A program made the position numbers and the translations under genes. From a virus, in IMG/VR virus record IMGVR_UViG_3300047557_001302, positions 1 to 22,433 of that record: a stretch of DNA of 22,433 bases. One strand, given 5' to 3'. Shown here one piece after another: positions 2,847 through 16,799 of this stretch (its first letter is position 1; each line of letters begins with the position of its first letter). The notes under the pieces are model-generated. The model searched no databases and was not told the origin of the DNA. It worked only from the letters and a program-made list of their open reading frames with translations.

Positions 2847-3635
2847 ATGGCACGCGCAAGAAACATCAAGCCTGGGTTTTTCCGAAGCGCCGATCTTGTT
2901 GAAACAACATTCGCGGCGCGCCTGCTTTTCATCGGACTGTGGACTATTGCAGATCGATCTGGGAGGCTAGAGGATCGCCCAAAGCAGATCAAGATGGAAA
3001 TATTCCCGGCAGATGACGTCGACATAGAAAGTTGTCTTCGAGAGCTTGAGGCAATTTCAGTCATTGATCGCTACGCGGTTGATGGGCGCAGCTTCATCCA
3101 GGTCGTGAACTTCTCGAAGCATCAAAACCCGCACCGAGACGAGCGTGCGAGCACACTGCCAGACAAGTGCGGGAACATTGAAAGCCCAGCGCAAAAACCA
3201 ATGAAGCACAGTGCAAGCACAGTGCAAGCACGGTGCACGAAAGATGCTGACACTGTGCCAATCGGGCTGATTCCTGATTCCGGATTCCTGATTCCTGAAA
3301 CAGAACCTGTCGGTTCTGTGGGCGCGAGCGCCCCGAAGCCACGGGCCAGCCGAAAGTGCCCGGAGTCATTCGCCCTCACCCCAGAACTCATCTCGTGGGC
3401 TGAATCGGAGGCGCCTGGGGTGCCTCTCGACACCGAGACGGCAAAGCTGCGCGACCACACCTTCAAAAACGCCATTTCCGACTGGCCGGGGGCGTGGCGC
3501 AATTGGATGCGGAGGGCCCAGCAAGACCTTGGGTTTCGCAGGGCGCCGGGGGGCGTGACCGCGACCAGCAAGCACGCTGGCTTTGCCCAGAAAAACTACC
3601 GAGAAGGGATCGAAGCAGATGGATCAATCGCCTGA
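2847..3635 (+). CDS. Phage replication initiator-like protein (replisome organizer/DnaT-like)
   Basis: A 262-aa protein. The N-terminal ~110 residues (KPGFFRSADLVETTFAARLL, then WTIADRSGRLEDRP, FPADDVDIESCLREL, and VVNFSKHQNPH at about 87-97) match the winged-helix N-terminal domain common in phage replication proteins. Residues ~115-170 are a low-complexity linker. The C-terminus (residues ~195-225, ending AWRNWMRRAQQDL) resembles the small helical domain of DnaT- or PriC-like loader partners. The expected role is to bind the phage origin and recruit the DnaC-like ATPase encoded immediately downstream (17-nt overlap). The start has GAGAAGGAG upstream. The linker DNA carries iteron-like repeats, the same arrangement as lambda O. 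Family assignment is from remembered sequence pattern; the detailed partner is inference. Confidence 0.75.
   Translation: MARARNIKPGFFRSADLVETTFAARLLFIGLWTIADRSGRLEDRPKQIKMEIFPADDVDIESCLRELEAISVIDRYAVDGRSFIQVVNFSKHQNPHRDERASTLPDKCGNIESPAQKPMKHSASTVQARCTKDADTVPIGLIPDSGFLIPETEPVGSVGASAPKPRASRKCPESFALTPELISWAESEAPGVPLDTETAKLRDHTFKNAISDWPGAWRNWMRRAQQDLGFRRAPGGVTATSKHAGFAQKNYREGIEADGSIA
3205..3318 (+). other. Candidate replication origin: iteron-like arrays and hairpin inside initiator gene
   Basis: Three tandem 11-bp units, AGCACAGTGCA (3205-3215), AGCACAGTGCA (3216-3226) and AGCACGGTGCA (3227-3237), each hold the dyad GCAC-N-GTGC. An inverted partial copy, CACTGTGC, lies at 3251-3258. A second array of four 7-bp units follows: CTGATTC, CTGATTC, CGGATTC, CTGATTC (3267-3294), then a partial CTGAAAC. 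A perfect 7-bp hairpin CAGAACC-TGTC-GGTTCTG closes it (3301-3318). Neither 11 nor 7 is a multiple of three, so the repeats are not explained by protein periodicity. The origin role is inferred by analogy with lambda; no strongly AT-rich unwinding element is evident nearby. Confidence 0.5.
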
Positions 3636-4419
3636 AAACCATCCGCGATCGGTAGTTCAAGCGCTTGGTGATCGCCAGCCAGACCGCGATGGACACTGCC
3701 CAGAGCACGGGGCATTCGTGAGCCGCAACATCTTCGCCAAGGTGTGGTCGAAGTGCCCGGCGTGCTCTGCTGCTGAAGCTGCTGCGGCCCAGGCCGAAGC
3801 CAGCGAGCGAGCAGCCCGCGCCGCCGATGAGCGCCACCGGGAGGCCATTGCCCAGGCTCGCATTCCTGCCCGATTCGTGGGCCGCACGTTCGCAAACTTC
3901 GTGGCAGACAGCGACGCACAGACTCATGCCCTGACCGTCGCCCGCGACTTCTCCGAGCGGTTCGAGCATCACGCCAAGCGTGGCACGTGGTTGGTTTTCT
4001 CCGGGCGTCCTGGCACCGGGAAAAGCCATCTCGCCGCAGCGATTTTGCAAGCGTCTATCACGCGGCACGTGCGATACATGACCTGCATGGACCTGATACG
4101 AACGGTGCGCGAAACGTGGCGGCGCGACTCAGAGAAAAGCGAATCCCAGGTTCTCGCCTACCTAGCCGGGCTTGACCTGCTCGCCATCGATGAGGTGGGG
4201 ATGCAGTACGGGACCGATGGGGAGCAGACCATTCTTTTCGACGTTATAGACCGTCGATATCGGGACATGAAGCCGACGATCCTGCTCACGAATCAGAACA
4301 AGGAAGGGCTTAAGACATTCCTGGGGGAGCGCACGCACGACCGGCTGCGCGAGATTGGCCGATGGGTTGCATTCGAGTGGGAGTCCTACAGGCCGCAATC
4401 AAGGATGGAATGGAAATGA
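3619..4419 (+). CDS. DnaC-like AAA+ helicase loader ATPase
   Basis: 266 aa from the ATG at 3619, chosen because AAGGGA lies about 10 bases upstream; an in-frame TTG at 3583 has no such site. Order of elements: a Cys/His cluster, CPEH (27-30) with CPAC (46-49), likely a zinc site; an Ala/Glu-rich helix (50-80); then the ATPase core with Walker A GRPGTGKS (129-136), Walker B LLAIDE (187-192), sensor-1 ILLTNQN (221-227) and a basic DRLRE (241-245). This is the DnaC/IstB-like layout. Such proteins load the host DnaB-type helicase on single-stranded DNA. The gene overlaps the initiator-like gene by 17 nt, so the two probably act together at the phage origin. Confidence 0.88.
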   Translation: MDQSPENHPRSVVQALGDRQPDRDGHCPEHGAFVSRNIFAKVWSKCPACSAAEAAAAQAEASERAARAADERHREAIAQARIPARFVGRTFANFVADSDAQTHALTVARDFSERFEHHAKRGTWLVFSGRPGTGKSHLAAAILQASITRHVRYMTCMDLIRTVRETWRRDSEKSESQVLAYLAGLDLLAIDEVGMQYGTDGEQTILFDVIDRRYRDMKPTILLTNQNKEGLKTFLGERTHDRLREIGRWVAFEWESYRPQSRMEWK

Positions 4420-4969: not shown

Positions 4970-5544
4970 CGCAGAAAAGATACACAGAACACATCTTGTC
5001 CAGGTGTGAGCCAAAAGACGAGGAAACGGGGTGCATCCAATGGACTGGCGCAATGAGTTCGCGCAAGCCTGGGGACATGGCGGCTATCCCTGTCATTGGG
5101 ATCATGGTTGATGGGAAACGTGCAGTTAGGACGTGTGCATCAGTTCTGTGGCGTGAAGCTGGCAGATATTTGCCAAGTGGGCACGTTGTCTGGCGCACAT
5201 GCTGCAACGAAGACCGAAAGTGCCTGAACATAGATCACATGAAATCTGGCACAAGGGCACAGAGGCAGACATTTTTTTCTAATGGCGGAGCATGGAAGGG
5301 AAACCCTATCCGAATCGCTGGGATCATGGCCAGGGCTGAAAAGATCAGGACAAGCCGAGAAGATGTTCGAGAGATTGAGCGGCTACTTGCAAGCGGTGTC
5401 TTGAACCGGGAAATAAAGGCGCAACTCGGTCACAGCCTGCCCCTAATCAGCAGGGTTAGAACAGGGAAACACCCATACAGCGCAAACCGCGAGGCGCTTA
5501 TCCCTGGCGCGTCTGTGTTTTCATTCGGGCAAGGCCGCAGATAG
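4966..5544 (+). CDS. HNH-type endonuclease-like protein with C-terminal HTH
   Basis: 192 aa from a GTG overlapping the previous stop (GTGA), with GGGGA upstream. Residues 20-96 follow the phage HNH pattern: GCIQWTGAMSS, LWREAGRYLPSGHVV, two Cys (79, 80), then KCLNIDHMKSGT (85-96) with N88 and H91. In most relatives a His lies two residues before the first zinc Cys; here that place appears to be Arg77, so nuclease activity is uncertain. Residues ~130-166 (REDVREIERLLASGVLNREI, then KAQLGHSLPLISRVRTGKHP) look like a helix-turn-helix similar to those attached to free-standing HNH enzymes. Possible roles are a homing-type endonuclease or a degenerate DNA-binding derivative. It is the last gene before the packaging block. 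Confidence 0.7.
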   Translation: MTQKRYTEHILSRCEPKDEETGCIQWTGAMSSRKPGDMAAIPVIGIMVDGKRAVRTCASVLWREAGRYLPSGHVVWRTCCNEDRKCLNIDHMKSGTRAQRQTFFSNGGAWKGNPIRIAGIMARAEKIRTSREDVREIERLLASGVLNREIKAQLGHSLPLISRVRTGKHPYSANREALIPGASVFSFGQGRR

Positions 5545-15032: not shown

Positions 15033-16799
15033 ATGGCCCTAGTGCAGACCTCCACACTGCTCCGCACAGTCAACAGCGGGGCAACGTCAACGATCTCATA
15101 CACAAGCAACCTGACGGCTGGAAGCCTGTCGGTGCTTTGCGTTGGCAACTACCCGAGCGGAATCACATCCGTCTCGGGTAGCACGAACGGGGCATATTCC
15201 CAGGCTGTTACCTACGGGGACGGCGGGAACAACTACACCGAGATTTGGTACAAGGCCAACGTCTCGGCTGGGGCTGAAACTCTCACGATAACCCCAACGA
15301 GCGCAAGCGGGAATTACGTCACCGCAGTAGCTCAAGAGTGGTCCGGGATGGCGACTAGTTCGCCGCTCGATCAAACAGGCACATCTGGAACGCTCACGGT
15401 CAGCACGACAGGGGCGACGACGCAGGCCGATGAGGTTGTGTTTACCGTCGCGGTGGCCGACGCCGGATCGTCCAACGTCGGGTGGGGCACGCCGAGCGGC
15501 TACACGCTGATCGCCCGTGAGAACGACTCGAACACGTACACGGGCCTGCAATCTGCGTACAAGATCGTTGCAGCTACTGGCACGCAGTCAGCCACTCACA
15601 CGAACTCAAGCGTCTCTGCTGACACGATCATCGCCGCGTTCAAAGTGGCAGGCGGTGGTGGTCAGACACTATCGCCGGGTCTGCTGACAAATACCAGTAC
15701 GATCTACGTCCCGAGTTTGACGCTTGGGAGCGTTGCGCTATCTCCGGGCCTGTTGACAAACACGTCAACGCTCTACGCTCCGACTTTGAGTGCATCGCTC
15801 AATGTCTCGCCTGGGTTACTCACAAACACAAGTACGCTCTATGCGCCATCGGTGAGTGTTGGGGTGTTGACTGTATCGCCAGGGCTGCTGACCAACTCAA
15901 GCACGCTTTACGATCCGTCGATCACTCTCGGTGCTGTCTCGCTATCTCCAGTCCTGCTGACTAACACCAGCACGCTATATGCACCGGCTTTGTCGCTCGG
16001 TGGCCAGAGCCTTAGCCCTCCGCTACTGACCAACACATCGACGATCTACGCGCCAAGCATTGCACTCGGTGCAGTCAATCTCTCGCCTGGGCTACTGACA
16101 AATACGTCCACGCTGTACGCGCCAAGCGTTCTAGCTGGCCAGAACCTAGCCGCGCCTTTGCTCGATTCTGGCGGGTTTATTTACGCGCCTAGCATCTCAC
16201 TTGGCACGGTTACCCTATCACCTCCGCTGATTGGCAGCACTGGTGCGCTGTATGCGCCTTCTATCGCCACCGGGACGGTCATATCGCCGCCGCTTCTGAC
16301 CAACACAAGCACCCTTTATGGGCCGTCTTTGTCCGTTGGCTCGGTGACGTTAAGTCCAAGCCTTCTAACCAACACCAGCACGCTTTACGCCCCGACGCTC
16401 ACGCAGTTCTCACCAGGGGCGCAGACACTAAGCCCTGGGTTACTGACAAACACCAGCGCACTCTATGCGCCTAGTCTGTCTGTCGGTACTACGTACCTAA
16501 GCGCCCCGCTTTTGGTGAGCGATGGGCAAGCCTATCACCCTGCAATCTCGTCTTTGCTGTCGGTTGGCGCGCCGCTTATCACCAATACATCGAGCGTATT
16601 TGCTCCCGTTGTTACGCCGGGCGGGGTAACTCTGCAACCCGGCATTCTGGTGAATGTCTCGGCTTTGCTGCTCCCTATCATCACGGGCGGGGCATCTGCA
16701 AACCCATCTGCGAAGTGGATCTATTCGGTCGCTACGCAAGGGATGGGCTTCAACGTCTCACCCGATGGGCTTTATTACTCGGTCAAGGCAAGGTCTTAA
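15033..16799 (+). CDS. Large virion-associated protein with ~15 tandem repeats
   Basis: 588 aa with AAGGGGAGGG before the ATG. Residues 1-205 form a beta-rich jelly-roll or Ig-like domain (TISYTSNLTAGSLSVLCVGN, IWYKANVSAGAETLTITP, VVFTVAVADAGSSNVGWG, TIIAAFKV), a type seen in phage adhesion and decoration proteins. After a GGGGQ linker, residues ~211-551 hold about 15 repeats of 22-23 residues built on LSPGLLTNTSTLYAPSLS. Repeats 8, 9 and 13-15 are the most diverged. The last ~35 residues (KWIYSVATQGMGF, then SPDGLYYSVKARS) form a separate cap. The regular PGLLTNTSTLYAPS unit suggests a fibrous beta-structure. It could be a collar, head or neck fibre; exact function and oligomer are unknown. 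Confidence 0.7.
   Translation: MALVQTSTLLRTVNSGATSTISYTSNLTAGSLSVLCVGNYPSGITSVSGSTNGAYSQAVTYGDGGNNYTEIWYKANVSAGAETLTITPTSASGNYVTAVAQEWSGMATSSPLDQTGTSGTLTVSTTGATTQADEVVFTVAVADAGSSNVGWGTPSGYTLIARENDSNTYTGLQSAYKIVAATGTQSATHTNSSVSADTIIAAFKVAGGGGQTLSPGLLTNTSTIYVPSLTLGSVALSPGLLTNTSTLYAPTLSASLNVSPGLLTNTSTLYAPSVSVGVLTVSPGLLTNSSTLYDPSITLGAVSLSPVLLTNTSTLYAPALSLGGQSLSPPLLTNTSTIYAPSIALGAVNLSPGLLTNTSTLYAPSVLAGQNLAAPLLDSGGFIYAPSISLGTVTLSPPLIGSTGALYAPSIATGTVISPPLLTNTSTLYGPSLSVGSVTLSPSLLTNTSTLYAPTLTQFSPGAQTLSPGLLTNTSALYAPSLSVGTTYLSAPLLVSDGQAYHPAISSLLSVGAPLITNTSSVFAPVVTPGGVTLQPGILVNVSALLLPIITGGASANPSAKWIYSVATQGMGFNVSPDGLYYSVKARS
15663..16689 (+). repeat. Tandem coding repeats (~66-69 bp units)
   Basis: About 15 degenerate copies encode the LTNTSTLYAPS unit. 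The nucleotide copies vary much more than the protein at third codon positions, so the array is old and kept by protein selection rather than by recent duplication. Most units are 66 or 69 bp; the unit near 16380-16440 is longer, with an insertion reading TQFSPGAQT. Confidence 0.85.
16672..16681 (+). promoter_or_regulatory. Repeated motif TCCCTATCAT, copy 4 (inside repeat-protein gene)
   Basis: Lies near the 3' end of the repeat-protein gene, about 120 bases before the ATG at 16800. In frame it encodes Leu-Pro-Ile-Ile, so it could be chance on its own. Confidence 0.3.

Follow-up and report, generated by a model that had tools for sequence, protein, structure and literature searches.

A probable replication origin within the linker of a phage initiator gene, read alongside the protein code

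A phage gene for a replication initiator carries, in its linker, two adjoining arrays of short direct repeats, which very probably form a DNA-level origin of replication embedded in the gene of the initiator itself. The gene lies at 2847–3635 (+ strand, 262 aa) of a 22.4-kb virus fragment from IMG/VR, the whole of which was analysed and is called the window here. Sequence comparison strongly supports selection at the DNA level, a bipartite layout, one array per genome, a polar module and a pairing between initiator and iteron; from these we infer origin activity, initiator binding, strand opening and helicase loading at the arrays.

The gene was assigned from matches to PHROG profiles, significant over the N-terminal domain (phrog_16167, E 2.5e-47; phrog_12556, 3.6e-47; phrog_1408, 9.4e-30), and from an AF2 model. 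The predicted protein consists of an N-terminal winged-helix domain (residues 1 to ~111), the origin-encoding linker (residues ~112–165) and a C-terminal domain. It is a member of the cluster of phage replication initiation proteins PHROG 16167/12556/17247/1408, whose annotation gives the protein name alone, without an origin array or a specificity residue, and it matches no Pfam family and no NCBIfam model. The gene that adjoins it downstream (3619–4419, + strand) encodes a DnaC-like helicase loader (phrog_50, E 3e-69), which is an IstB/DnaA-type AAA+ protein in Pfam and has DnaC-like NCBIfam matches below the curated cut-offs. This context of initiator and DnaC-like loader was counted in favour of an origin. 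Directly upstream of the initiator start, an inverted repeat of 26 nt (85%) with a folded interior occupies 2752–2833 and has, as RNA, a folding energy of −58 kcal/mol (z −3.7 versus shuffles); since perfect upstream stems of at least 11 bp occur in only 10 of 369 relatives, it is not a feature of the family. A match to the int-alpA RNA of Rfam at 2650–2693 is below threshold (27.2 bits; gathering cut-off 35.8).

In the linker, an 11-bp iteron array (3204–3237, + strand) comprises three direct units with GCAC-N-GTGC dyads. The units at 3204–3214 and 3215–3225 read AAGCACAGTGC; the unit at 3226–3236, AAGCACGGTGC, differs by a change of the central A to G that leaves the dyad intact, as an earlier reading of the sequence alone had noticed. 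An inverted partial copy of the iteron follows on the − strand at 3245–3258 (TGCTGACACTGTGC, 86% over 14 nt; ACACTGTGC on the + strand). The heptamer array (3267–3301, + strand) consists of CTGATTC at 3267 and 3274, CGGATTC at 3281, CTGATTC at 3288 and a degenerate CTGAAAC at 3295; its four units cover 3267–3294, and TRF reports a span of 3267–3298. Just 3' of it lies a hairpin with a putative role (3300–3319), with arms ACAGAACC and GGTTCTGT at 3300–3307 and 3312–3319 that are 8 bp long rather than the 7 bp first given. A degenerate copy of the 11-mer, AGCACACTGCC, is found at 3150–3160 (+ strand); its status as an iteron is ambiguous because it overlaps codons of the conserved protein motif S102-x-x-P105. 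Every element listed by the sequence-only reading, from the dyad units to this copy, is thus present at its site.

Within the whole 22.4-kb window, TRF ranks the 11-bp array first and the 7-bp array second. When codons were shuffled with preservation of both protein and codon usage, the observed score was reached in 0 of 2000 shuffles for the 11-bp array and in 1 of 2000 for the 7-bp array. The DNA of the heptamer array is comparatively unstable: a 40-bp segment starting at 3267 ranks below 98% of the segments of the gene in stability (2.1% are less stable), and for 247 genes the median share of less stable segments is 2.8%, although the array is only mildly AT-rich. Two other possible marks of an origin were given up. 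Short inverted repeats like the hairpin are numerous, and this one has no significance by itself; it was set aside as an origin part when folding 3' of the arrays in relatives proved only modestly enriched over control positions. Cumulative GC skew, suggested earlier as a check, is uninformative in the window, where the curve has no extremum. In circularised relatives, the skew minimum falls ~1.6 kb from the array in two, where it coincides with the region of divergent early transcription, and not in a third; this marker was therefore dropped.

The same layout, a variable 11-bp iteron array followed by a conserved CTGATTC array, recurs in relatives. A first set of 80 IMG/VR relatives was reduced to 65 non-redundant sequences, the window included; 64 of these have at least three heptamers in the linker, many with a preceding 11-bp array. 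Prophages in GTDB genomes, annotated phages and additional scans brought the collection to 371 non-redundant initiators. Of the 219 from all sets retrieved by homology, 175 (~80%) have a strict CTGATTC array in the gene, and many of the remaining relatives carry variant arrays, for example of CTGAATC or CTGATTCCCTTAACCCTATTA. Both repeat types had initially been taken for iterons; the comparison leaves that role to the 11-bp units as the variable, specificity-bearing part and marks the heptamers as the conserved part. Scanning viral contigs with a DNA pattern for the heptamer, blind to protein, returned 120 loci, and 98 of the 100 loci in an open frame belong to a homolog of the initiator. Of 51 whole phage records, 45 show the paired-heptamer pattern as a single cluster in the genome, and the reversed pattern, used as a control, occurs in none.

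Named phages with the array in the gene include Pseudomonas phages F10, LESphi2, JBD44 and psageB2, Bordetella phage IFTN1, coliphages HK639 (with a P-like loader as partner) and Louie, Vibrio phage 24E30.2 and Acinetobacter phage MD-2021a. The family spans tailed phages of Pseudomonadota, Bacillota and actinobacteria, with partners of DnaC, P or DnaB type. Five members (L246, L280, L432, L468 and L470) have the initiator domain and no detectable array in the DNA scanned. Actinophage relatives of Fishburne (L474–L553) show the same two-part layout in other sequences, with TCGCGA-type 11-bp iterons and GGAACAGn octamers that lie in the least stable 6% of gene DNA and are not AT-rich. Five of the 7 positions of GGAACAG agree with GAATCAG (CTGATTC in reverse complement), perhaps by chance. 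In E. coli 0H24–0H26 (L556, L557 and L561), a lambdoid phage with the initiator appears in both chromosomal and extrachromosomal records (39.4, 29.7 and 6.2 kb). The extrachromosomal molecules may represent induced phage, deleted forms or products of assembly; they were dropped as proof of autonomous replication, given that a chromosomal prophage copy is also present and that the 6.2-kb record is linear.

The manner in which the heptamer is fitted into the coding sequence offers a closer view of the selection acting on it. Successive units of a 7-bp repeat occupy each of the three frames in turn, and at that spacing one CTGATTC in three would set TGA in frame. Across 178 in-gene arrays, exact units number 243 and 325 in the other two frames and 0 in the TGA frame, a zero that is forced by the open frame. 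Among one-mismatch units, however, it is the T that is changed in 77 of 78 in the TGA frame, mostly to G, versus 34 of 155 in the other frames (Fisher 3e-33). The window follows suit at 3281, where CGGATTC alters the in-frame TGA to a codon read as GGA. Spacing shifts as well: exact frame-1 units are followed by a step of 7 bp 291 times and of 8 bp 9 times, exact frame-2 units by one of 7 bp 47 times and of 8 bp 198 times. In noncoding arrays, 91 of 91 units are exact, a count that informs on the T only, since the search pattern used to gather the units left just the second base free; there, 7-bp spacing holds in 68 of 75 steps. The actinophage octamer GGAACAGn contains no stop in any frame, and its array is regular. 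As judged from these sequences, the repeat retains its function while its spacing and single letters shift so as to avoid in-frame TGA. The earlier suggestion of a DNA-level function gains support in two ways, from the same bipartite array in the linkers of relatives and from its distortion exactly where stop codons would arise; the proposed comparison of repeat spacing likewise showed a recurrent layout whose 7- or 8-bp step follows the codon frame.

Several relatives carry the array in noncoding DNA (L101, L112, L144, L149, L158, L191, L197 and the related L090 and L170), up to ~3 kb from the initiator gene and on either strand, and their linker is short and free of the array. In L181, the array lies just 3' of a short initiator. 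Coding of these arrays on the opposite strand was rejected, as both strands of the arrays checked gave only ORFs of 24–79 aa. Even modules that are reversed relative to the gene have the iterons first and the CTGATTC array after them on the same strand, and in-gene arrays are oriented forward in 262 cases against 1 clear reverse case, though the reverse orientation would be stop-free. Conserved order and this bias imply that the module is polar and a DNA element rather than a protein feature. The sole clear reverse array, of GAATCAG units, lies at 5415–5454 of L263, from the genome of the planctomycete Bythopirellula. Initiator domains without linker repeats, an observation which had been expected to count against an origin, do occur in some relatives, yet they support it: the array sits elsewhere in noncoding DNA and the linker is short.

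These observations also bear on the proposal that the arrays are a protein feature or the product of neutral slippage, with a low-complexity linker of LIPDS type drifting and the DNA having no function of its own. In its favour, conservation of the linker that holds the arrays is poor, and protein repeats such as LIPDS arise where the arrangement is of 15 or 21 bp. Such drift would nevertheless have to produce 7- and 11-bp periods out of step with codons, a CTGATTC heptamer that persists across proteins 35–70% identical, perfect noncoding arrays in phages with an array-free linker, and deviations and spacing that follow the stop frame. On the strength of the noncoding arrays and of the distortion that follows the frame, the proposal was rejected, and we consider it extremely improbable.

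The 11-bp unit differs by lineage (GCACnGTGC, AGCACCA, TAACnGTTA, CCTAGG/CCTTGG, CTCCnGGAG and CGGTA; TCGCGA in actinophages), and its sequence appears to track a single position of the initiator. This predicted specificity residue is D98 in the window (codon 3138–3140, + strand), the second residue after the KHQNPH motif. Alignment column 98 is the top predictor of iteron class at 50–65% identity (log-odds 2.74; next 1.10), in a pairwise comparison in which classes were defined after inspection of the sequences, pairs are non-independent and N98 and K98 are mixed classes. A motif-free test based on shared linker 7-mers also places residue 98 first (ratio 2.90; next 1.99), and at equal identity up to 70%, iterons are shared by 58–78% of pairs with the same residue 98 versus 6–14% of pairs with different ones. 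Origins outside the gene fit the pairing, with R98 accompanying CCTAGG, K98 (in L112) accompanying GCACCATGC and N98 accompanying CGGTA; L112 is 86% identical to L101 over residues 1–95. The motif-free test and the noncoding cases partly answer the concern over class definition. The tracking thus seems to extend to initiators whose origin lies outside the gene, and it suggests a contact between residue 98 and the iteron. If this pairing is true, changing D98 to K, T or R should shift preference to AGCACCA, TAACGGTTA or CCTAGG, respectively, which makes origin specificity testable through single-residue changes.

The AF2 model of residues 1–115 (pLDDT 94.9) has a winged-helix topology with residue 98 just after the wing. 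Its nearest PDB folds include the initiator domains of RepA_N proteins of staphylococcal plasmids (4pql, 4pt7, 5kbj and 4pta), with 4pql at the top (Z 7.7, rmsd 3.3, 87 aligned; a Z in the range of common folds), as well as PLE RepA (4ro3, Z 6.0). With Z below 8, a RepA_N-type fold of the predicted N-terminal domain is suggestive only. RepA_N (PF06970) has no Pfam match to the window protein or any of 81 relatives, and searches of the initiator against Pfam and NCBIfam found no homology to lambda O, so that by these sequence tests the initiator is a member of neither family.

An iteron origin inside the initiator gene is nevertheless of a known kind, with precedents in lambda O, SPP1 gp38 and plasmid RepA_N/pSK41, and the window has the dyad direct repeats within the initiator gene and, next to them, DNA among the least stable 2–3% of the gene. 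In RepA_N initiators of pSK41 and pTZ2162 and in PLE RepA, an N-terminal winged-helix domain binds the repeats, as is proposed for the window initiator. The Rep boxes of pSK41 are central in rep, as the array is in the window initiator gene, and the protein linker encoded there can be dispensed with (PMC5703833); in the window family, initiators whose array lies elsewhere have a short, array-free linker, as dispensability predicts, although this is a comparison and not a deletion. Unlike RepA_N plasmids, the window family has 11-bp dyad units and a conserved polar heptamer array. Lambda O has dyad iterons in mid-gene, an unstable region beside them and the helicase-loader gene next to it (PMC7466680), and the window shares all of this layout, including the adjoining loader (3619–4419); in contrast to lambda, its iterons are 11 bp long and its unstable part is a repeated heptamer instead of a plain AT-rich tract. 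The likeness to lambda O drawn at the outset therefore holds for the in-gene layout, whereas the lambda O sequence family is unmatched and pSK41 RepA_N is the closer architectural analogue. Gene 38 of SPP1 likewise contains direct repeats and an unwinding element, with a second similar origin elsewhere in the genome (oriL and oriR; PMC6316719); unlike SPP1, the window family, whose sequence was compared by family scans, has one array per genome, in the gene or outside it. RepA of the mycobacteriophages Miko, Rachaly and Jeeves has been described as related to plasmid RepA (PMC7157519); no link of it to the window family is shown.

In the mechanism that we propose, the 11-bp dyad iterons, spaced by one turn of the helix and all facing one side of the DNA, would be bound by the N-terminal winged-helix domain, and residue 98 would largely determine which iteron is recognised. 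The initiator assembled there would open the neighbouring heptamer array, which is among the least stable DNA of the gene, and expose one strand of the polar repeat; the replicative helicase may then be loaded by the initiator's C-terminal domain together with the DnaC-like product of the downstream gene. A more tentative extension, which we regard as quite possible but somewhat short of probable, is that the initiator or a host factor reads the heptamer array in single-stranded form, as an element with strand polarity and sequence specificity that is akin to but distinct from DnaA-trios, and that residue 98 and the 11-bp iteron make up a modular code for exchanging origin specificity while the opening element is kept.

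The arrays could instead be a cis site bound by the initiator for another purpose, such as an autoregulatory operator, a centromere-like partition site or a fork block. Initiator-bound iterons can regulate transcription, parS-like sites are also short direct repeats (of 8 bp in mycobacteriophage parS; PMC7157519), and contigs of the L101 type have a D3-like cI gene in the neighbourhood of the noncoding module. An operator or partition site would, however, poorly explain an array deep in the initiator gene that occurs once per genome and pairs with the initiator's DNA-binding domain, or the low-stability element beside the iterons, as in the lambda, SPP1 and pSK41 origins. We judge this alternative improbable and prefer the embedded origin.

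In the literature searched, TGATTCCTGATTCC occurs in no paper and no origin of this type was found reported. As far as that literature shows, the novelty lies in the conserved polar heptamer module, in the way the coding frame distorts it, in its relocation to sites outside the gene and in the pairing of residue 98 with the iteron. With these features, origins in a large family of phage initiators that lacks a Pfam entry (in Pseudomonadota, Bacillota and actinobacteria) can be recognised by their sequence, and a clear natural case is at hand in which one stretch accommodates both DNA function and coding; the relocated origins serve as natural controls in which DNA element and protein linker are separated. 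Elsewhere in the window, a 588-aa ORF at 15033–16799 is made up of many ~20-aa repeats (LSPGLLTNTSTLYAPSL) and resembles a repetitive tail or surface protein.
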